This document shows, piece after piece, positions 10,259 to 34,542 of a DNA stretch of 35,033 bases. Within the stretch, counting starts at the first letter, position 1. Every line of letters begins with the position of its first letter. Location: contig QCSL01000023.1 in the NCBI GenBank assembly GCA_003209165.1, positions 1 to 35,033 on the forward strand, read 5' to 3'. A program made the translations under genes and the position numbers. Source of the stretch: Synechococcus sp. AG-670-B23. GTDB lineage: Bacteria; Cyanobacteriota; Cyanobacteriia; PCC-6307; Cyanobiaceae. The notes under the pieces are model-generated. The model was not told the origin of the DNA. It was given only the letters and a program-made list of their open reading frames with translations, and did not search any database.

Positions 10259-10732
10259 TCAACTTGCCGGAAGGCCAAGGGGGTACAGCAGCCAACGCTG
10301 GATATCATCAGCCTTCCCTGAAACTGGTCGTGCAAGCGTCCAACCCTCTCCACGCTCGCCTCTTAAGAGGAACAATTCAAAAGAGCTATCAACACGTACT
10401 GGGTCCTGGGGGAGTTGCCAATCAAAACTGCCCTCAAGGTGTGTAAACCGTTGACCATCCAATTTGAGCGTTTCCTGATGACCAACCCGGACACGACTTA
10501 CAACGGGATCAGTGGTAGGGGGATTGAGGCCAAGACTTTCAGAAATTGATGACTGAGTAGCCGTTATTTGCGCTTGCAAAGCTTCCATGACGATGCTTCT
10601 AGGCGGATCTGAATTAAAACCACATGAAGTACATATGATAGCTATATTAAATAGGCAGAAAATATTTATAACAAGAAATGCTACGCGACTCGAAAAGGCG
10701 CCGCTGGGCATTCTGCACCGATAAGACATCAT
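10259..10732 (-). CDS. Small putative lipoprotein, last gene of the island
   Basis: 157 residues from the ATG at 10732 (another at 10729-10727). The frame reaches 10831 but that would overlap the carrier gene. A basic N-terminus and a hydrophobic stretch (AFLVINIFCLFNIAIICTSC) end at Cys37, a loosely lipobox-like site, so it is probably a lipoprotein facing the periplasm. The rest is soluble with an Ile/Gln/Ser-rich helix and a beta-rich end (VGHQETLKLDGQRFTHLEGSFDWQLP, ELFLLRGERGEGWTLARP). No family recognised. The 5' part is very AT-rich (15 of 60 bases G or C in the line at 10621) while the 3' part is GC-rich like the core genome (35 of 60 at 10261). A recombination joint within the gene is likely. 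Confidence 0.6.
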   Translation of the reverse strand: MMSYRCRMPSGAFSSRVAFLVINIFCLFNIAIICTSCGFNSDPPRSIVMEALQAQITATQSSISESLGLNPPTTDPVVSRVRVGHQETLKLDGQRFTHLEGSFDWQLPQDPVRVDSSFELFLLRGERGEGWTLARPVSGKADDIQRWLLYPLGLPAS

Positions 10733-10745
10733 TGGTAGAGAATAA

Positions 10746-12086
10746 TCAAACAGCAGATTCAGGATTTGGTGGTGCCTCCTTAGCGGGCGATTGGAAGGAC
10801 GAAACAACAGCGATAGCCATCGCGAGAACACCGGTCGTTGCAGCTCTCGGGAGGGTTAATATTGGGTCGATAGCAAGCAGAAGAACCAAAATCGGTGGAT
10901 ATGGTACTTGAAAGAATAAAAGAGCTACAGAAATTGTAGGTACAGTTGCCACTCCTGTGAGCCCAGCAGCAGAAATACCAGTGATGGCCCCCCAACCAAT
11001 GACCTCAACAATCCTTAAAGGAGTAATACCTACGTCATAAAGATTCAGCGCAAATAAGATAGCAATTACGTTATAAGAAACGTTGCCAAGCCGGGCAATC
11101 AACAAACTTAGAGAAGCTGAAGCCTCAACTTCAGATTCATTACGTCCCATACCCGTGAGGGTCTCAAAGAGCAATGGATAAGCGGTCATACTGCTTCCTG
11201 TCGACAGACTTAGCAAAAATACTGAATCAACCGGGTTCACTGAAATTCCAACACGTTCGCTTTTAGAAGTAAATCGACGATAAATTAATCTCGAAACACC
11301 AAGTGAGGCAATTGCCGTAAGAAAAACGCATATTGTAAAATTTAGGAGCGCAATGACTATTTCAGCATTGATTGTAGAAATGGCTGCGGAAATTAGGCAG
11401 ATAAGAACCAAGGGAGCAAGATTGAGTACAATATTAAGAGCTTGGACAGAAATTGAGTTAACACTCCGGAGAAGTGAAATAAGAGGCGATGTCAAATCTG
11501 GCTTAAGCCGTGAAATAGCCAAACCAGCAATGACAGAACCACTAATTACTTTGAGTGTTTGACCATTTGAGGCATCAGCAAAAATGTTACTAGGAATAAT
11601 TTTCGAGATCCAAATATCATTAGCTTGTGAGGTAGAAGCAACAGCACCAACATGAATATCAGTAACATCAAGCATAAATCGACCTATTGACAACTTCGCA
11701 CTAGGCGAAAGAATTCCTGGGCTCTGATATAGAGATAGAAGCAAGGCCAATGATGTAGCAAATAAAATTGCTGAAAGTAAAGAAACTACAAATCTAGTTC
11801 CAAATCTGATGCGATCAGCATTATTTCGGGTGTGGGAGCTAAAGATGTTAGCTATAGAAATCATCACAGCAGACAAGACCAGGGGGATCGCCGGAAAAGC
11901 AATAAGCTGAACCATCGAAAGGCCAATATCATTAAGAGCAGAAGAAGAAGAAGGAGGAATAAGCCTTCCTAAGACAATCGAGAATGGCAATATATAAAAG
12001 AAAAAATTACGAGGCTCCCGTAATTTTGGCAAAAAGGATAATATCGAGGAACAGATCGCTTGGATGGTTGAGGGATTAATGTTCAT
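10746..12086 (-). CDS. Divergent SDF (DAACS-type) secondary carrier
   Basis: 446 residues, very hydrophobic. The glutamate/dicarboxylate:cation symporter fold is recognised from IPSNIFADASNGQTLKVI (about 163-180), the Ser-rich hairpin LSLSTGSSMTAYP (292-304), and an IDPILTLPRAATTG stretch (406-419) in the place of the family's DRxxDMxRTxxN. The family is Na+ or H+ coupled and imports acidic amino acids or C4-dicarboxylates. Key substrate residues differ: the usual NMDGT of helix 7 is replaced by LGNVSYN (332-338), and the last motif is diverged. The substrate is therefore probably not ordinary glutamate or succinate. It begins two bases after the solute-binding protein stop, which suggests that the two work together. 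Confidence 0.8.
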   Translation of the reverse strand: MNINPSTIQAICSSILSFLPKLREPRNFFFYILPFSIVLGRLIPPSSSSALNDIGLSMVQLIAFPAIPLVLSAVMISIANIFSSHTRNNADRIRFGTRFVVSLLSAILFATSLALLLSLYQSPGILSPSAKLSIGRFMLDVTDIHVGAVASTSQANDIWISKIIPSNIFADASNGQTLKVISGSVIAGLAISRLKPDLTSPLISLLRSVNSISVQALNIVLNLAPLVLICLISAAISTINAEIVIALLNFTICVFLTAIASLGVSRLIYRRFTSKSERVGISVNPVDSVFLLSLSTGSSMTAYPLLFETLTGMGRNESEVEASASLSLLIARLGNVSYNVIAILFALNLYDVGITPLRIVEVIGWGAITGISAAGLTGVATVPTISVALLFFQVPYPPILVLLLAIDPILTLPRAATTGVLAMAIAVVSSFQSPAKEAPPNPESAV

Positions 12087-12088
12087 GG

Positions 12089-12940
12089 TCAGGAGGCAAG
12101 ATAGTAAGATTGGAACTCATCCAGAATCGCGATATCGTTTTTGATCCCCCCCCACTCACGCTGCAAAGTCATATCTATAAAGTCCTCAAGACCAAGTCTA
12201 CCTTCCTGGGAGAAATAGATAGACTTTCGATCAATCAGTTCGTCGAAAAGTATAGGTACGTATTCAAGTGATAAATCAGGTTTCGAGTAAACAATAGGTT
12301 TAATTTCAGTAGCATCACGATATATAGCGTCAACAATAGAATCATTAGCAAACAAAGCCTCTTTCGCGGCTGTCCAATTGTCAAAACCAACAAATTCTGC
12401 GTTTGGAAAGTTAACTCTCGCCTCAGTTTCCCAGGTTGAATTCTTGATAGAGCCAATTCTAATATTTGAATTTTTTAAAATCTCACCAAAGCTGGGGTCA
12501 TCTGGGTCTACTTTCAATGAAGAAATAAAACCTCGATTAGCAAGAAAAGCATGGCGAAAACTTAGATATTGAATTGGGAAGGCATCAAAAAGTCGAGTAT
12601 ATGTTAGCCCGAGTTTGCCAATCCCAAGGTCAAAATCGCCAAGCCCAACACGTTCTACCAGGTTGTTAAAACTCGTTGAAGAACGGTCAAATTCAATATC
12701 TACTTTAAGTTTGCTGGCCAGAGTTTTGGCAATTTCAACATCATACCCCGTGAGCTCCTTAGATTCTGGATCTATATAGTAAGCAGGAGGAGTGTTGTAG
12801 GGAGGCAGGCCAACTTTCAAATAACCACGACGTTGGATGGATTCAACAAAATTATTAACAGCGTTGACTTGAAGAGGGCTAAGTAACATTAAAGAGACAA
12901 AGGCAAATGCGACCAATGATCTCAAAAAAGGTTTAAACAT
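12089..12940 (-). CDS. Periplasmic solute-binding protein, family 3
   Basis: 283 residues. The N-terminus is a signal peptide (basic start, hydrophobic core at 8-22, VNA cleavage near 25-27), so it acts in the periplasm. The mature part has the family-3 pattern: RRGYLKVGLPPYNTPPAYY, KELTGYDVEIAKTLASKLKVDIEF, then SFNNLVERVGLGDFDLGIGKLGLTYTRLFDAFPIQY. The TR in that last stretch fits the position of the Arg that grips an amino-acid carboxylate in this family. These proteins normally feed ABC importers for polar amino acids or opines. No ABC permease or ATPase is present here; the next gene is a secondary carrier. A TATAAT sequence lies upstream, so a promoter of its own is possible. Confidence 0.88.
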   Translation of the reverse strand: MFKPFLRSLVAFAFVSLMLLSPLQVNAVNNFVESIQRRGYLKVGLPPYNTPPAYYIDPESKELTGYDVEIAKTLASKLKVDIEFDRSSTSFNNLVERVGLGDFDLGIGKLGLTYTRLFDAFPIQYLSFRHAFLANRGFISSLKVDPDDPSFGEILKNSNIRIGSIKNSTWETEARVNFPNAEFVGFDNWTAAKEALFANDSIVDAIYRDATEIKPIVYSKPDLSLEYVPILFDELIDRKSIYFSQEGRLGLEDFIDMTLQREWGGIKNDIAILDEFQSYYLAS

Positions 12941-12972
12941 GCAGCAAAGACTGCCAGACGAAACATGTTTTG

Positions 12973-13001
12973 ATTATAGACCGGTTCTATTAAGCTTGCA
13001 T
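12973..13001 (-). promoter_or_regulatory. Possible promoter before the solute-binding protein gene
   Basis: On the minus strand a perfect TATAAT lies at 12978-12973, 33 bases upstream of the ATG at 12940. Seventeen bases before it is a poor -35 match (ATGCAA at 13001-12996, three of six). The intergenic gap of 103 bases is the largest in the otherwise gapless operon, which supports a second start of transcription for the binding-protein, carrier and lipoprotein genes. Confidence 0.5.
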
Positions 13002-13043
13002 TGAAATAAACTAATCCAAGAACTCAGAATATTTCGTTCGACA

Positions 13044-13778
13044 TTAAATGGACATTAACGTATCTGAACGCAAGCCCTTGCGCAAGGATTCAACCCCAAC
13101 GAGGTCATCAAGAGAAAGGTTCCCCAAGTTGACCAGCGGACCGTAACGATTAATCAGGTATGACTGAACTGACTTGATGGGGGCCTCAAAGAGAAAGCAA
13201 CCAATTGGAAGCCTTGCGGTAATAGACTCAAGCAAAACACTATCAACTTGACCTCCATCAGATACGTAGCCACAACGTCCAGATTCCCTAGATTCGAGAA
13301 TGATAAGTGAGGCACCTGATTCTGATGACATCTCACAATGGTTAATCCACTGTTGAGAAGTAAGTTCATGCTCAGAATCGGACGTTTTACGACCCACCTC
13401 ACTCATCACAAAATAATTCGAGGAAAGTTTTTTAATATATGAACAGTAAGTTGAGTCGTCAAGATCAATTATTCCTCTACTCAACTCGATACAATCGAGG
13501 CCGAACAAATCTATATGACGTAAAAATTCATCAAACCCATGGTGATGCATCATATATTCAAAAAAAGTTCCTCCTAAGACCGGGTAAATACTAAATTCAT
13601 TGCAAAGAATTTTTTTGCGAGAGAAATCGGGATCAACAAGTGCGCTACCCCAGCCAAACTTTATAATGTCAATATATTTAGAATACGAATTCAAGTACGT
13701 TTCAAAAAGTTGAAATGGTGTTCCTACCTCAAGAACATGATTTAAAGAATTAGGATTTAAGGATAGATTATTAATCAT
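13044..13778 (-). CDS. comA: ComA-family phosphosulfolactate synthase
   Basis: 244 residues, the family's usual length. ComA is a TIM-barrel enzyme that adds sulfite to phosphoenolpyruvate to give (2R)-phospho-3-sulfolactate, first known from coenzyme M synthesis in methanogens; plants have the related HSA32. The motifs that define it are in order: IIKFGWGSAL (38-47), LGGTFFE (68-74), IELSRG (97-102), SEVGRK (126-131), LESRESG (161-167), FEAPIKSVQ (197-205), VNLGN (216-220) and SLRKGLRSDTL (231-241). I remember ISDG rather than LSRG at the third site, so the residue after Ser is changed. Start is the ATG at 13778, six bases after the K+ channel stop. Function in a cyanobacterium is unproven: sulfolactate synthesis or a heat-tolerance role like HSA32 are both possible. 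Confidence 0.85.
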   Translation of the reverse strand: MINNLSLNPNSLNHVLEVGTPFQLFETYLNSYSKYIDIIKFGWGSALVDPDFSRKKILCNEFSIYPVLGGTFFEYMMHHHGFDEFLRHIDLFGLDCIELSRGIIDLDDSTYCSYIKKLSSNYFVMSEVGRKTSDSEHELTSQQWINHCEMSSESGASLIILESRESGRCGYVSDGGQVDSVLLESITARLPIGCFLFEAPIKSVQSYLINRYGPLVNLGNLSLDDLVGVESLRKGLRSDTLMSI

Positions 13779-13784
13779 TTTAGC

Positions 13785-14540
13785 TTAAGAATCAGACGAT
13801 TCCTCAAGTGCATTAAATCTTGAATTAGACTCTAGAATGTTAGCAGTAAGAAGCGCAACACAAATAATTCCGACAATACCAAAACCGATTGCTACAAATT
13901 TGCCAAGTGTTGTAGAAGGAGTTATATCACCATAACCAATAGTTGTGGAAGTAACAATAGAAAACCACAAAGCTCGGATTATAGATCCAAAATGCTCTGA
14001 ATCAAAATCCCTTTCAATTAAATAGATACAAAAGGCCATGACATATGTCACTACCGAAAGCAAAATCAAAGGGAAAAAAGTATAACCAGGAGAATCCGTA
14101 AGTATAAATTGGACACGCTTCAACACACGCTGGAAACCAGAGAAATATATGGATAATAAGGATTTGACGATATAGATACCAATGACGACGAAAGAGTCGT
14201 TGGGAAATATATCAGTTACCAAAATAAGGACGATAACAAGGTCTATTAAAGCACTTTTTTGGAGAAAAGACCTTATTAGACCAGAAAATGAATAACATAA
14301 GGAAGACCAAGAATTGGAAATCTTGCCAATATAATCAGCAATAAAGAATAATTCAATAATATTTAAGGCAAAGTCGAGATAGAAATTTCCTTCAAAGGTA
14401 TCTAAACTAGGTTCGGTGCTCAAGGCAATTTGCGCCAACAAGAAAACTATTACACAATTTAGCAATAAGGAGTAATTGTTACCAGGAAGACCACCCAAGT
14501 AATCACCAAAATACCATGGATCCTTTCCTGAATATTTCAT
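13785..14540 (-). CDS. Six-helix potassium channel subunit
   Basis: 251 residues with about six hydrophobic helices. The pore loop carries the K+ selectivity filter TTIGYGD at 199-205, followed by the pore-lining helix (VAIGFGIVGIICVALLTANI). Helix four (about 121-145) has only scattered Lys/Arg (Lys126, Arg138, Lys141, Arg142) rather than the regular ladder of voltage sensors, so voltage gating may be weak. There is no RCK/TrkA-N domain or cyclic-nucleotide domain after the pore; the protein ends soon after the last helix. It starts six bases after the last mrp gene and is followed six bases later by comA, so it belongs to the operon. Likely role: K+ flux across the inner membrane linked to ion or pH balance. 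Confidence 0.88.
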   Translation of the reverse strand: MKYSGKDPWYFGDYLGGLPGNNYSLLLNCVIVFLLAQIALSTEPSLDTFEGNFYLDFALNIIELFFIADYIGKISNSWSSLCYSFSGLIRSFLQKSALIDLVIVLILVTDIFPNDSFVVIGIYIVKSLLSIYFSGFQRVLKRVQFILTDSPGYTFFPLILLSVVTYVMAFCIYLIERDFDSEHFGSIIRALWFSIVTSTTIGYGDITPSTTLGKFVAIGFGIVGIICVALLTANILESNSRFNALEESSDS

Positions 14541-14546
14541 ACTGGA

Positions 14547-15269
14547 TCAGAGCACACCTCTCTTGATGACGAAAAGTCGCAAAATTGACCAAGCACCAAA
14601 AGTAACTTTTAGAGCCGCAATTACATTCAAGATGGGAATATAAAAGACTGGAGATAATTCTGAAAAAATAGATGAAGGGTACAAAAATGAAGATAGAGTA
14701 GCCAATGAAAACAATATAAAACAAGCAACCGCAAATTTCTCAATTGCTGGCGCATTTGCCTTGAAGTAAAAATTCTCAACCTTTTGAAGTCTGCCTGTGA
14801 TCATTAACAGAGTGATAGCAGTAGCTCCAGCGACACCTGAAGCAAAGCCACCACCAGGCGTTAAATGACCCTTGAGAGCAAGATCAACTGCAAGAAAGAA
14901 ACTCAACAATGCGGCAAAGTCGAGAAGAAGACGTACAGCTTCATCGTTGATTCCAACAAATCTCTCTTCTGAATTCTCCTGATGCAATAAAATCTTTACA
15001 CCTAATCCTGCAACTGTGAAGACACTGACTTCACCTACAGTATCAAACAGTCGCGTGACTAATATGACAGAAGTCACTGAATTTGGTATTTGGGTATAAC
15101 TAGAGAGATAAGCGACTATTGCTTCCGTATCCCTAGCAAAGGAATCATCTCTAGCCAATAAAGCGATAAGCATAACTACCGTAATAGCAAGAAGGTAGAC
15201 AAGCGACTTCAAAGATTGGCTAGAAATTCCTAAAACTCGAGTGCTACGAGTTTGGGTTGTTTGTGTCAT
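14547..15269 (-). CDS. mrpB: MrpB with N-terminal MbhE-like (MrpA C-terminal) domain
   Basis: 240 residues. The first half corresponds to the tail of a full MrpA, the MbhE-like unit (SVTSVILVTRLFDTVGEVSVFTVAGLGVKILL, around 63-95). The second half is MrpB, with GHLTPGGGFASGVAGATAITLLM, the family's signature in a four-helix domain. MrpB is one of the small membrane subunits of the Mrp cation/proton antiporter, which couples proton entry to Na+ (or Li+, K+) extrusion. The division of MrpA into separate pieces is known in cyanobacterial and archaeal Mrp/Mbh systems. Its start overlaps the upstream gene's stop by four bases (ATGA). Confidence 0.82.
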   Translation of the reverse strand: MTQTTQTRSTRVLGISSQSLKSLVYLLAITVVMLIALLARDDSFARDTEAIVAYLSSYTQIPNSVTSVILVTRLFDTVGEVSVFTVAGLGVKILLHQENSEERFVGINDEAVRLLLDFAALLSFFLAVDLALKGHLTPGGGFASGVAGATAITLLMITGRLQKVENFYFKANAPAIEKFAVACFILFSLATLSSFLYPSSIFSELSPVFYIPILNVIAALKVTFGAWSILRLFVIKRGVL

Positions 15270-15811
15270 GTCAAAGAAGAAATGGTAGAAAAAGATAGAT
15301 TAAAGTTCATATCTGTGAAACTATCTATATTTTGCACGTCATAGAGCAAGCTTTCTGCCTCAAAATAGACAATTGAATCGAGTAGAATCGCATGTGGTGA
15401 ACCAGAATATTTTGAAGATGATAGGAATTCAAGATTTGACTTCTCATTGGTAGACAAATCTTCAGCTTGGTATATAATATTCAGATGCAGTTCATCAAAG
15501 ATTGATTTTAATTTGACCTTCAAGGGTTCTGGAGGGGGTGTCTTTTTATCATAAATCAAAACAATAGAATAGCAGGATCTTATTGTGACGATATAAAGCA
15601 ATGACGAAAGAAGAGTTCCAACCATGACCTCTGTTAACGCAACATCAGGTGCACCTAAAAGGGCAAAGATAAGCGCTGAGATGCTTCCTAGAAATGAGCG
15701 GTAAATTAAACTATTAATCGGTGACTGTGAGCCTATTAAAAGAATCCCAAGAAGTGGCAACAGAAGCTCAAATGGGAAAATTAAAGCTGTACTGATAGAT
15801 ACTTGATTCAT
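15266..15811 (-). CDS. mrpA: MrpA fragment, MbhD-like subunit with long soluble tail
   Basis: 181 residues. The first 85 contain three hydrophobic helices and the conserved LGAPDVALTEVMVGTLLSSLLYIV stretch of the DUF4040/MbhD domain that lies within full MrpA. The remaining hundred residues are polar with no membrane segment (TPPPEPLKVKLKSIFDELHLN, then a Ser-rich end). I do not know this tail from other MbhD proteins. The large NuoL-like part that makes up most of a full MrpA (about 500 residues) is absent. It is coupled by ATGA overlaps to mrpG upstream and mrpB downstream. Confidence 0.75.
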   Translation of the reverse strand: MNQVSISTALIFPFELLLPLLGILLIGSQSPINSLIYRSFLGSISALIFALLGAPDVALTEVMVGTLLSSLLYIVTIRSCYSIVLIYDKKTPPPEPLKVKLKSIFDELHLNIIYQAEDLSTNEKSNLEFLSSSKYSGSPHAILLDSIVYFEAESLLYDVQNIDSFTDMNFNLSFSTISSLT

Positions 15812-16083
15812 AATCTTCTATCAGAAATATTTCCAAGAATGTAACTGGATATAGTGTTCCACAAAGCCAAGGAAACAGCAGCTACAAATAATAAAGGCCA
15901 ATATTGGGGAACACGAATCAACAAACCTAAAATGATTAGTAGAGAGCCAACACTATCAGACACTGTAAGAGTGTGCAATTTGTAGAAAATTGAATGTTCG
16001 CGATTGAGGATGGGGAAAGTACCCCATGTCCAAAAGAACAGACCGATCAACAGTGTTGTATATGAAACAAATGAAGTAGTCAT
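15808..16083 (-). CDS. mrpG: MrpG, Na+/H+ antiporter subunit
   Basis: 91 residues with three membrane helices, the usual size. The pattern LLIGLFFWTWGTFPIL, then FYKLHTLTVSDSVGSLLIILGLLI fits the MnhG/MrpG family (the LHT-x4-D-x-x-G core is the family mark). A small subunit needed for assembly of the Mrp complex. It starts four bases after the stop of mrpF and overlaps the following gene. Confidence 0.82.
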   Translation of the reverse strand: MTTSFVSYTTLLIGLFFWTWGTFPILNREHSIFYKLHTLTVSDSVGSLLIILGLLIRVPQYWPLLFVAAVSLALWNTISSYILGNISDRRL

Positions 16084-16086
16084 GAT

Positions 16087-16368
16087 TTAAATCCTCATCT
16101 CCAGCAAAGAAAGAATGAGCATTCCAGCATCCCCAACAATGAGAATAAAAGCGCCAATGCAAGCAATCATCCAATCTCCTCTGAATACACCACTAACAAG
16201 TATAATCAATGCCAATTTGTTCCCAAAGCTTGATGCATATGCAATACGCTCTGTTGTTTCTTTTGACCTAGATATAGCGATAACAGGTATTAAGCTGACT
16301 AACAACATAAGGTATATGATTATATATTGAATACCTTCGAGGTGATCAACTTTAATTGTTTCTGTCAT
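16087..16368 (-). CDS. mrpF: MrpF, Na+/H+ antiporter subunit
   Basis: 93 residues with three hydrophobic helices (about 13-32, 50-64, 67-87). It matches MnhF/MrpF by size, topology and position between E and G; the TTERIAYASSFGNKLALIILV stretch corresponds to the family's DRIxAxDxxG region, in a diverged form. MrpF is a core small subunit of Mrp antiporters. Its start overlaps the stop of mrpE by four bases. Confidence 0.72.
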   Translation of the reverse strand: MTETIKVDHLEGIQYIIIYLMLLVSLIPVIAISRSKETTERIAYASSFGNKLALIILVSGVFRGDWMIACIGAFILIVGDAGMLILSLLEMRI

Positions 16369-16802
16369 TTCGAATCTACCTCGTTTTCATTGTTAACAGT
16401 CGATGATGAAAAGACAGTATGAACTCTCCATGTTTCACTATCTTCAAGTCCTGTGACCAACGTCATAGGGGTGAATGTCATTCTGAACAGATCTAGAAAT
16501 TTCGAGAATCTTGACCCACTTTTTGCTCTTGAAGTAAGCTTCTGTTTAGTAAAACCATCTATAGGATCTGAAATAAATATCAACTGAAAACTCTCCTTAA
16601 TCATATCAAATGGAAGGCGTAGAGTGAGTAAAGTCTCACGAATCAAAGGGTATAGCTTAAGTTTCCTAAAATCACCAAAAGGTATTAACAAACAAATTGC
16701 GATTCCAATTAAAATATTGGTTAGCTCAAAGCTCGCAGTTACTAAGCACCAAAAAGTCATACGGAATAAAAGAATTAAACAAAGCCTAAAAAAGTTAGTC
16801 AT
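16365..16802 (-). CDS. mrpE: MrpE, Na+/H+ antiporter subunit
   Basis: 145 residues. The N-terminal half is membrane-spanning (FFRLCLILLFRMTFWCLVTASFELTNILIGIAICLLIPFGDF) and the C-terminal half is a soluble cytoplasmic domain, ending in TPMTLVTGLEDSETWRVHTV. That layout, and the conserved P-x-T-L-V stretch near the end, are typical for MrpE. Its start overlaps the mrpD stop by one base (TAATG). Confidence 0.8.
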   Translation of the reverse strand: MTNFFRLCLILLFRMTFWCLVTASFELTNILIGIAICLLIPFGDFRKLKLYPLIRETLLTLRLPFDMIKESFQLIFISDPIDGFTKQKLTSRAKSGSRFSKFLDLFRMTFTPMTLVTGLEDSETWRVHTVFSSSTVNNENEVDSK

Positions 16803-18328
16803 TAGATTTTAAAATAAAGAAGATTTGCAAGTAATAGTGCAGCCACCAGAAAAGGTGCACCCACAAGATCGAGTGTTCTCGTTACAGGCTTGACAAAGTC
16901 ATCAGCCTGTATGCCAACAACAGAAACAAATAGAATGCCACCTAATATGGCAGATACAACTGCAGTCTGTATTGATTCAATTGTAAAGAAACTAGGATAT
17001 GTAAACGAAGAAGCGACAAGTAGTAGGGTGGACAATATTAGAATATAGTTTTTAGGTGATAACAATATTTCTTCTACAGTAACTATGAGGTTGAAACTAT
17101 TTGACTGAATTCTACTTCTCCTTTTCACAAACACATTAATTCTGTCAAATATAAGACGTGCATACACAGTTGATGTGAGTAGCGAAGCGGTTGTATATAT
17201 CAGTTTTGCTTCAAATGGAAGATCGTACTTAACCCAATTTTTTGTGACAAAACCGGCCAAGAAAGGGAATCCCATTATAGACAAACTAGAAAAGACAAAT
17301 ACAGTTACTCTCATCAATTCGTGTGGAGACTCCCGCAAACTTGATTTTGATTGGTGGCTTACAGATAGATCCGCTGAAATTTTATCTTCGTCGTGAAGTG
17401 TAGAGAATAGTAAAGCTTTACAAATGCCATGCTGCATAGCATAAATACATCCATAAGTAGGAGACAAAATTGCAATACCTAGTTGAGAGACAGAACTCCA
17501 TCCAAGAGCCCTACCGCTTTCACGCTCAAAGACTGCATAAATTGCGGCAACTACTCCACTAATTACGCCTATCACAATCATGGAGTCACTTATAGGTGTG
17601 AGAATCTGACTCATACGAGCTATGGGAGCGATTCCAGCACAGGTAACGCAACCCGAAAGTATCGCGGATGATTGGCAGTTCGCATGGGAATAAATGTTAG
17701 GTACCCATAGCCCACAAAGAAAAACTCCAGATTTAGTCAGCAAACCGGCAATAATTAGGCAGAGTGCTGTATTTGGAGCTCTAACTAAATCCTCGAGCAA
17801 GAAACTACCAGTAAATGTGAATGCTTGTACAACACCGATTAAGAAAATAAGCATAGCTAAGCCGCCCCCAATCAAATATTGAAATGAATTAAAAAGCGAC
17901 TTTTTATCATTGCGATCAGCGATAAGCAAAAAGGCGCAGAATCCAAGTAGTTCCAATGATATGAACAAGCTGACCAAATCAACAGTAGTGAAAGATATGA
18001 ATAATGCCGTAAGCAACACTAAACATATCTGGTAGAAGTAATGAGAAAAACGATTAGCAAAAAGACCAAAAACGATGAGCAGTGTGACAGAACTTCCAAA
18101 AATGAGTGGGAAACTATACGAATCTACTGAAAATTGAATCCCACCTTCACCCACTAAGGTAAATGCGTATGTGAAATCACCTCCTAATACACTCAAGCTT
18201 GCTGTTGCAAAGCCAAGAAGGCTAAGAATGCCCAAAGGAAAAATAATTTCAGGAAATACGCAACCCAAAAATCCAAGTAATGCTGGCAGGAATATAAGTG
18301 CAGGTAAAATAATTTGCAGATCAATCAT
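16802..18328 (-). CDS. mrpD: MrpD, proton-pumping NuoN/L-like antiporter subunit
   Basis: 508 residues with about fourteen hydrophobic helices, the usual length. It is the ion-translocating subunit, related to complex I NuoL/M/N. Ionisable residues placed as in the family are Glu126 (FISLELLGF), Lys199 (LLTKSGVFLCGLWVPNIYSHA) with His215, and His300 and Lys304 (QHGICKALLFSTLHD). The HA-x-x-x-SSAILSG stretch at 215-225 is a family signature. This is the only NuoL/N-like protein in the cluster, whereas Mrp systems usually carry two. A full partner may be encoded elsewhere. AT-rich (23 of 60 bases G or C in the line at 17821). Start overlaps the mrpC stop by four bases. Confidence 0.9.
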   Translation of the reverse strand: MIDLQIILPALIFLPALLGFLGCVFPEIIFPLGILSLLGFATASLSVLGGDFTYAFTLVGEGGIQFSVDSYSFPLIFGSSVTLLIVFGLFANRFSHYFYQICLVLLTALFISFTTVDLVSLFISLELLGFCAFLLIADRNDKKSLFNSFQYLIGGGLAMLIFLIGVVQAFTFTGSFLLEDLVRAPNTALCLIIAGLLTKSGVFLCGLWVPNIYSHANCQSSAILSGCVTCAGIAPIARMSQILTPISDSMIVIGVISGVVAAIYAVFERESGRALGWSSVSQLGIAILSPTYGCIYAMQHGICKALLFSTLHDEDKISADLSVSHQSKSSLRESPHELMRVTVFVFSSLSIMGFPFLAGFVTKNWVKYDLPFEAKLIYTTASLLTSTVYARLIFDRINVFVKRRSRIQSNSFNLIVTVEEILLSPKNYILILSTLLLVASSFTYPSFFTIESIQTAVVSAILGGILFVSVVGIQADDFVKPVTRTLDLVGAPFLVAALLLANLLYFKI

Positions 18329-18669
18329 TTTTCAAGATCCCGATATCGAAGCATGGGCGATTTTCTACCAAGCCGAAGGGCAATTGCACAAAGTAACGCC
18401 TGAGTGGCAAATCCAATAACAATCGCTGTCAAAATGATGGCTTGAGGATAAGGATCGGAATATGAGCTATATCGTTCAATCGACACAATGGGGGTTTGAT
18501 ACCCCACTGATGCAGCGGTAATCACAAAAATGCTTATAGTAGCCGTATCTATAACATCAAGTGACAACAAGGAACGTAATATTGACTTTGAATTGAGCAA
18601 GCCAAAACATCCAATAATCATCAATAAGATTATTGGCATTAATCTTATTTTTTCCAGGGTTAATTCCAT
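18325..18669 (-). CDS. mrpC: MrpC, NuoK-like antiporter subunit; first gene of the operon
   Basis: 114 residues with three helices, the NuoK/MrpC size. The DPYPQAIILTAIVIGFATQALL stretch (about 72-93) is the MrpC signature (DPLPQALILTAIVIGFA in relatives). It lies in the membrane domain next to MrpD and probably helps form its proton channel. The ATG at 18669 is only about 22 bases below the -10 of a good promoter and has no ribosome-binding motif in front, so the message may be nearly leaderless. Confidence 0.88.
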   Translation of the reverse strand: MELTLEKIRLMPIILLMIIGCFGLLNSKSILRSLLSLDVIDTATISIFVITAASVGYQTPIVSIERYSSYSDPYPQAIILTAIVIGFATQALLCAIALRLGRKSPMLRYRDLEK

Positions 18670-34468: not shown

Positions 34469-34542
34469 CGGGGCGTGGCGCAGCTTGGTAGCGCACCACT
34501 TTGGGGTAGTGGGGGTCGTGGGTTCAAATCCCGCCGCTCCGA
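34469..34542 (+). tRNA. tRNA-Pro (anticodon GGG)
   Basis: 74 bases that fold into a full cloverleaf. The acceptor stem is CGGGGCG with CGCTCCG (one G-T pair), the anticodon stem CCACT with AGTGG around the loop TTGGGGT, and the T-arm GTGGG-TTCAAAT-CCCGC. The loop gives anticodon GGG, reading CCC and CCU. The discriminator is A and the CCA end is not encoded. A terminator follows about 45 bases later. Confidence 0.95.

Follow-up and report, generated by a model that had tools for sequence, protein, structure and literature searches.

A block of eleven genes on the minus strand at positions 10746–18669 of a 35,033-nucleotide stretch of Synechococcus sp. AG-670-B23 (contig QCSL01000023.1; the whole stretch is called the window) joins seven Mrp-type antiporter subunits, a K+ channel, a homologue of the phosphosulfolactate synthase ComA, a family-3 periplasmic binding protein (SBP) and a secondary carrier of the SDF family. 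We hold with moderate confidence that ten of these genes form a conserved unit for ion handling and uptake in marine picocyanobacteria, with ComA as an optional addition, and that the SBP and the SDF carrier would form its transport heart, with a non-canonical mode of coupling. The constant core consists of the Mrp subunits, the K+ channel, the SBP and the SDF carrier. The open reading frames (ORFs) of the block were confirmed and bear out the close minus-strand packing with one 103-base gap that a first-pass annotation of this DNA had described: the intergenic spacings in bases are −4 (mrpC/D), −1 (D/E), −4 (E/F), +3 (F/G), −4 (G/mbhD), −4 (mbhD/mrpB), +6 (mrpB/K+ channel), +6 (channel/comA), +103 (comA/SBP) and +2 (SBP/SDF).

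The block was counted in 15 marine Synechococcus and Prochlorococcus genomes (the 11 of 300 family genomes that have both SDF and ComA, plus G630, G632, G637 and AG-410-A05), and the gene order is identical wherever it can be read; identity between single block proteins falls to some 40–50% across these genomes. The count includes G279, in which the block is split over two contigs with breaks inside comA and inside the SDF gene and the SBP, falling in the contig break, is unseen. Among the 300 family genomes SDF (E ≤ 1e-40) is found in 13, ComA (PF02679) in 12 and both in 11, and this co-occurrence together with the identical gene order indicates an association beyond chance. The exceptions are G155, where ComA belongs to a different cluster, G033, which holds a remnant, and G047, where SBP and SDF stand behind a CPA-type exchanger. 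The earlier suggestion of a conserved, ordered and undescribed set is thus upheld for Mrp, K+ channel, SBP and SDF in the 15 genomes; a literature search, outside which most subscription papers lay, returned no description of this gene set or of an SBP-linked SDF carrier. Separate occurrence of the parts with no conserved neighborhood, which the first-pass annotation had named as grounds for abandoning its proposal, is not observed for the ten-gene core; the same family does also contain ordinary Mrp clusters that lack both SDF and ComA.

The alternative that survives best, although we consider it unlikely, is that the block is an island for pH, Na+ and K+ homeostasis in which SBP-SDF and ComA are unrelated passengers held by co-regulation only. 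In its favor, Mrp and a K+ channel could secure ion balance by themselves, ComA can be dispensed with, and the block is missing from its site in 17 of 30 genomes; the gene order kept in 15 genomes argues against it, as does the G033 remnant, which retains channel, SBP and SDF, with no ComA or MnhB found in this 53% complete genome.

The SDF carrier (446 aa, positions 10746–12086) matches the Pfam SDF profile at 9.3e-34 (117.5 bits against a curated cut-off of 27.9), and its nearest solved sequence by profile is the ancestral aspartate transporter 9bgz (1.5e-27); alignment to the nearest solved sequence gives the GltPh numbering used here for residue positions. The carrier resembles the SLC1/DAACS transporters (SDF, PF00375; GltPh, GltTk, EAATs, DctA and GltP) in its Pfam and PDB-sequence matches, hairpin serines, D390 and R397, whereas it differs in the absence of the NMDGT motif and of the cation residues of transmembrane segment 8, in Arg311, in one extra residue in hairpin 2 and in the adjoining SBP gene. 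Specifically, A-R332-L-G replaces N-M-D-G in the window carrier, with D407 and R414 kept (GltPh D390 and R397). The comparison covers 52 distinct loci, made up of 24 loci (22 of them with an SBP-SDF pair) and the 30 best-scoring cyanobacterial loci (30 of 30 paired, with two repeats); the remaining cyanobacterial places had weaker scores, with E-values from 1e-128 to 1e-31, and the second SDF copies in L121, L122 and L124 were left out, as was G279, whose SDF gene runs off a contig. Not one of the 52 carriers retains N310, D312, N401 or D405, and 51 have Arg at position 311, with D390, R397 and the hairpin motifs kept in all 52. In a control set of 20 SDFs drawn from a different group within the phylum, N401, D405 and R397 are present in 20 of 20 and the motif reads NMDG in 19 and SMDG in one; no SBP match was found within their 1.5-kb flanks.

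According to PMC12668577, the NMD loop serves to coordinate the substrate together with all three Na+ ions, and M311 is directed into the substrate pocket; N401 ranks with the most strongly conserved positions, and H+-coupled relatives have L311 and N405. The same source supplies residue sets for the two branches and allows for other H+ signatures. At the positions of the Na+-coupled set (S or T at 92–93, N310, M or S at 311, D or E at 312 and at 405) the window carrier reads S, A, A, R, L and A, and at those of the known H+-coupled set (A, L, I, V, M or F at 92, L311, N405) it reads S, R and A; it conforms to neither. The loss of the canonical Na+-site residues makes ordinary Na+ symport, in which Mrp would build a Na+ gradient for the SDF carrier to spend, distinctly unlikely, and in that form the coupling proposed by the first-pass annotation is not supported. 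The neighborhood is what speaks for it, in that SBP-SDF adjoins Mrp in the block and a CPA-type exchanger in G047; set against this, N310, D312 and D405 are missing in 52 of 52 carriers, and D405 is kept in 20 of 20 other SDFs.

The substrate site of the window carrier keeps R397 and has Thr in place of both D394 and N401. Thr occupies position 394 in all 14 marine-block carriers that were aligned; G033 has Asp there, and the best 30 cyanobacterial loci have either Asp or Asn. According to PMC12668577, D394 contacts the amino group of the substrate and R397 its side-chain carboxylate. Arg311 could replace both Na+ and N401 by holding a second carboxylate.

The SBP (283 aa, positions 12089–12940, minus strand; Pfam SBP_bac_3 9.2e-10) has a signal peptide-like start. 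Its Arg and the Asp of [YF]RD, located by alignment with solved family-3 members, are conserved in all 22 sequences that were aligned; we take residues at these positions to be anchors for alpha-amino acids, and their retention would favor an alpha-amino acid cargo. Profile searches of the block proteins found no ABC (ATP-binding cassette) permease or ATPase accompanying the SBP, which adjoins the SDF gene in 50 of the 52 loci. The pairs include Burkholderiales and a Rhodobacterales plasmid. Outside the marine block, an Asp/Glu racemase lies close to at least 27 of 35 SBP-SDF pairs (the G033 remnant left out), the number being a lower bound because several stretches end within 1.5 kb. Racemases were called by PF01177 scan in L077, L078, L081, L121 and L124, by eye in L122, and in the best 30 cyanobacterial loci with a profile built from four of those loci. 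Clusters that combine racemase and SBP with an SDF of the Arg311 type occur widely among other cyanobacteria (L077, L078, L081, L126–L155), the racemase being present in 23 of the 30 best-scoring loci. Plasmids of Cupriavidus and Paraburkholderia share the order SBP-SDF-racemase-second SDF with a plasmid of Gemmobacter aquarius (L124, 3073–8752), where a converging gene of K+-channel type (Ion_trans 5.7e-33) stands at the cluster end. The second SDF copies in L121, L122 and L124 also have Arg at 311, and the L124 copy lacks R397. In G047 a gene for a CPA-type Na+/H+ exchanger precedes SBP-SDF on the same strand. Because an exchanger (G047) and a channel (Gemmobacter) recur beside SBP-SDF, each as a single case, a functional link with ion transport is preferred over chance company.

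From these observations we infer a mechanism in which SBP and SDF carrier act together and Mrp and the channel support them. The SBP would gather a small acidic amino acid or a dicarboxylate-like anion in the periplasm and pass it to the SLC1-fold carrier, whose import may be H+-coupled, exchange or facilitated and is probably not canonical Na+ symport. The Mrp antiporter, moving Na+ out and H+ in, would maintain cytoplasmic pH and Na+ balance during uptake, the K+ channel would carry balancing charge, and ComA plausibly metabolizes the cargo or a linked sulfonate. An acidic amino acid is suggested as cargo by the nearby Asp/Glu racemase and the amino-acid anchors of the SBP.

Several observations weigh against the uptake unit as proposed. 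Thr394 suits a dicarboxylate more than it does an amino acid and agrees poorly with the anchors of the SBP, for which reason the marine cargo could be a dicarboxylate or a hydroxy acid instead. The carrier of G630 has Gln and not Arg at 311; PMC8431971 reports that mutation of the motif Met alone in GltTk left the Na+ stoichiometry unchanged; and loss of the canonical site is compatible with Na+ binding elsewhere. Two loci of one genus (L079, L080) have an SDF of this type and no SBP nearby. Most SBP-SDF loci examined are without Mrp and channel, and conversely 61 of the 72 family genomes that bear Mrp lack this SDF, Mrp alone being common (MnhB is found in 72 of 300). AlphaFold models of the SBP (mean pLDDT 56.6) and the SDF carrier (36.7), computed from 6-row alignments, were unusable.

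TRAP and TTT systems are SBP-dependent secondary transporters, and the block resembles them in that its periplasmic SBP is accompanied by a secondary carrier and not by an ATPase; it differs in that the membrane part is an SDF protein, the SBP is of family 3, and neither DctQM nor TctAB is present among the block proteins. Polar amino acid ABC importers share the family-3 SBP fold and the amino acid anchor positions, whereas the block has neither an ABC permease nor an ATPase. We tentatively propose a further kind of SBP-dependent secondary transporter in which an SLC1 carrier with Arg replacing the Na+ site would work with a family-3 SBP; it would be spread across cyanobacteria, occur also in proteobacteria and usually be accompanied by a racemase, and in the marine lineage it would be built into an Mrp/K+-channel unit with ComA contributing cargo chemistry. 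In Anabaena, uptake of several amino acids was raised in a mutant of the DAACS gene all0342 (PMC4500139). Two published all0342 primers have no match within 3 mismatches in the best 30 cyanobacterial loci.

The ComA homologue (244 aa, positions 13044–13778, minus strand) matches PF02679 at 4.4e-59 (200.3 bits against a cut-off of 25.2) and aligns over the whole domain with the B. subtilis homologue 1u83 (1.5e-60) and with 1qwg of M. jannaschii (3.1e-57); eight of 11 sequences were used in the ComA alignment, with L010, L011 and L002 left out. Unlike established ComA proteins, it falls below the archaeal equivalog cut-off (TIGR03849 in NCBIfam, 175.6 against 280 bits) and is set in a transport block without ComB, C, D or E beside it, and its activity is predicted only. 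The gene is present in 13 of 15 block genomes and absent from G630 (89% complete) and G637 (87%), which keep the other ten genes; tblastn of the gaps in L117 and L115 detected no ComA remnant, and a scan of genome contigs with a single ComA sequence confirmed no further case. The 103-base gap that follows comA in the window (12941–13043) is the slot that holds a glyoxalase-type (VOC, PF00903) gene directly after comA in four other genomes (G186, G273, G261 and AG-410-A05), and no VOC gene was found anywhere in G000 (the window genome), G112, G162, G216, G249 or G630. In G155, too, ComA and VOC are direct neighbors, there in a separate cluster (L013, 4833–17442) together with genes for phosphoenolpyruvate (PEP) mutase and a thiamine pyrophosphate (TPP)-dependent enzyme and with large ORFs of adenylation/condensation (nonribosomal peptide synthetase-like) type, the last read from the sequence by eye; this may be a sulfonate or phosphonate natural-product locus. 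Absence from two ten-gene blocks and the joint occurrence with VOC in G155 identify ComA as an add-on cassette and not the hinge of the block, and the idea that it is an essential or constant link, favored in the first-pass annotation, was rejected.

These findings also bear on whether the block is a sulfonate system, in which ComA would make phosphosulfolactate from PEP and sulfite and SBP-SDF would move sulfolactate or cysteate, the sulfonate analogues of malate and aspartate. We regard this as very unlikely: the presence of ComA in 13 of 15 genomes, the finding of PF04029 (ComB-type) proteins in 10 of the 11 genomes searched for them and the two pocket arginines with Thr394, which could suit a dianion, are offset by the two genomes that keep all but ComA, by the ComA score below the equivalog cut-off, and by the distribution of PF04029, which three genomes that lack the block have as well and which has no match in G000, although it may simply be missing from that 87.7% complete assembly.

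The seven Mrp-type genes and the channel gene occupy the upstream part of the block, all on the minus strand. Profiles support the subunits C (114 aa, 18325–18669; Oxidored_q2 1.1e-17; NCBIfam antiporter subunit C, 140.3 bits against a cut-off of 91), D (508 aa, 16802–18328; Proton_antipo_M 5.6e-26, the only such protein of the block), G (91 aa, 15808–16083; PhaG_MnhG_YufB 5.5e-15), MbhD or MrpA C-terminal type (181 aa, 15266–15811; MbhD 7.4e-15) and B (240 aa, 14547–15269; MnhB 1.6e-14; NCBIfam subunit B, 293.5 bits against 184). The E-type subunit (145 aa, 16365–16802) is assigned by position and a match below the cut-off (MNHE 1.1e-4, 22.4 against 27 bits). The F-type subunit (93 aa, 16087–16368), with no meaningful Pfam or NCBIfam match, is assigned by position and by its match to the gene in the same place of ordinary cyanobacterial Mrp clusters (L082, L083). 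The MrpD residues E...L.GF and TK[SA]G are kept in 15 of 15 block genomes. With its subunits of types C, D, E, F-like, G, MbhD and B the set is like Mrp/Mnh antiporters and like the MbhA-H module of membrane-bound hydrogenase. It is unlike them in lacking a second large NuoL-like (MrpA N-terminal) protein and in its linkage to channel, SBP and SDF. The K+ channel (251 aa, 13785–14540; Ion_trans_2 2.5e-17, Ion_trans 2.6e-11) carries the filter TTIGYGD, which conforms to the T[VI]GYG pattern, in 15 of 15 block genomes, and shows a weak Pfam Lig_chan match.

The SBP might instead report an amino acid to which the SDF protein, whose fold can also conduct anions, or the K+ channel responds without import. 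The lost coupling residues, the weak Lig_chan match and the likeness of an SBP_3-type gene beside a K+ channel to glutamate-gated K+ channels would suit such a sensor or ligand-gated pathway. We give it very little weight, given that all 52 carriers retain D390, R397 and the hairpin motifs, as a working carrier would, and that most SBP-SDF pairs have no channel in the stretch examined.

The block-type loci in the named collection come from single-cell genomes of Synechococcus and Prochlorococcus, which the sample tables of PMC6122165 place in open Atlantic and North Pacific samples. The block lies between ruvA and the small-protein gene lipo in ten genomes, between rpsO and ruvA in G186 and G273, and at a third insertion point, between lipo and eamA, in G630; in both Prochlorococcus loci it is placed elsewhere. 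Of the 30 genus genomes with a covered lipo locus, 17 have an empty site at which ruvA adjoins lipo, and G131 has flanks near-identical to those of G216 and G249, yet is without the block. Trees of the ten module proteins and of the flanking proteins have almost all groupings in common. They conflict over G162 and G112, which the module puts with the G630/G186 side (support 100) and the flanks with the AG-679/AG-673/G637 side (support 83), and again inside the AG-679/AG-673 group. This near agreement is consistent with long residence with losses more than with frequent capture, and repeated capture as a roaming island is disfavored for the same reason. Low GC and the different insertion points, three of them around ruvA and lipo, point the other way, toward possible exchange: GC is 38.5% in the block and 58.3% in the rest of the window, 38.9–42.0% against 54.2–60.5% in the surroundings for the other nine Synechococcus loci measured, and 28.7–29.1% against 31.4–32.1% for the two Prochlorococcus loci. 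No viral contig was confirmed in a search with the SDF alignment, and a search of phages with the SBP gave zero matches. The G033 remnant (L037, 3306–6441) appears decayed, its channel lacking the TIGYGD filter and its SBP frame broken near the start, with the SDF frame open. Upstream of the block, both Prochlorococcus loci (L019, 6919–10745; L045, 767–4596) have, in a common order, a TPP-dependent enzyme, two small ORFs, a glyoxalase-like ORF and an aquaporin-like ORF.

A twelfth gene, counted as a member by the first-pass annotation, is on the same strand and adjoins SDF (10259–10711); it encodes a small protein, possibly a lipoprotein, and has zero family matches in Pfam and NCBIfam profile searches. 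It is present in 30 of 34 genus genomes and in 19 of 19 of the good ones, and directly adjoins ruvA, with the block absent, in 17 genomes; in two others ruvA lies between it and the block. Its apparent overlap with SDF is an artefact of a long ORF, the conserved part fitting a start near 10711. Being core across the genus and beside ruvA where the block is missing, it was rejected as a member, and the unit is reduced from twelve genes to eleven. The gene order of the window is dnaG-eamA-lipo-block-ruvA-rpsO-PAM68-like-dnaE, in a genome assembly of 2.27 Mb in 100 contigs; this order and the relatives of the window assign it to marine Synechococcus. A promoter scan of the window gave 28 hits against 23.3 expected and 11 terminator-like hits against 7.1, to which no evidential weight is attached, and the sole Rfam match in the window is a tRNA-Pro (GGG) at 34469–34542.

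If SBP and carrier do cooperate, they would be an addition to the SBP-dependent secondary transporters. The carriers would then provide a natural SLC1 series with a replaced Na+ site, informative about the gain and loss of Na+ coupling in glutamate transporters. In the ocean, the block would represent a heritable, patchy trait of uptake and ion balance that separates close relatives, such as G131 from G216 and G249.

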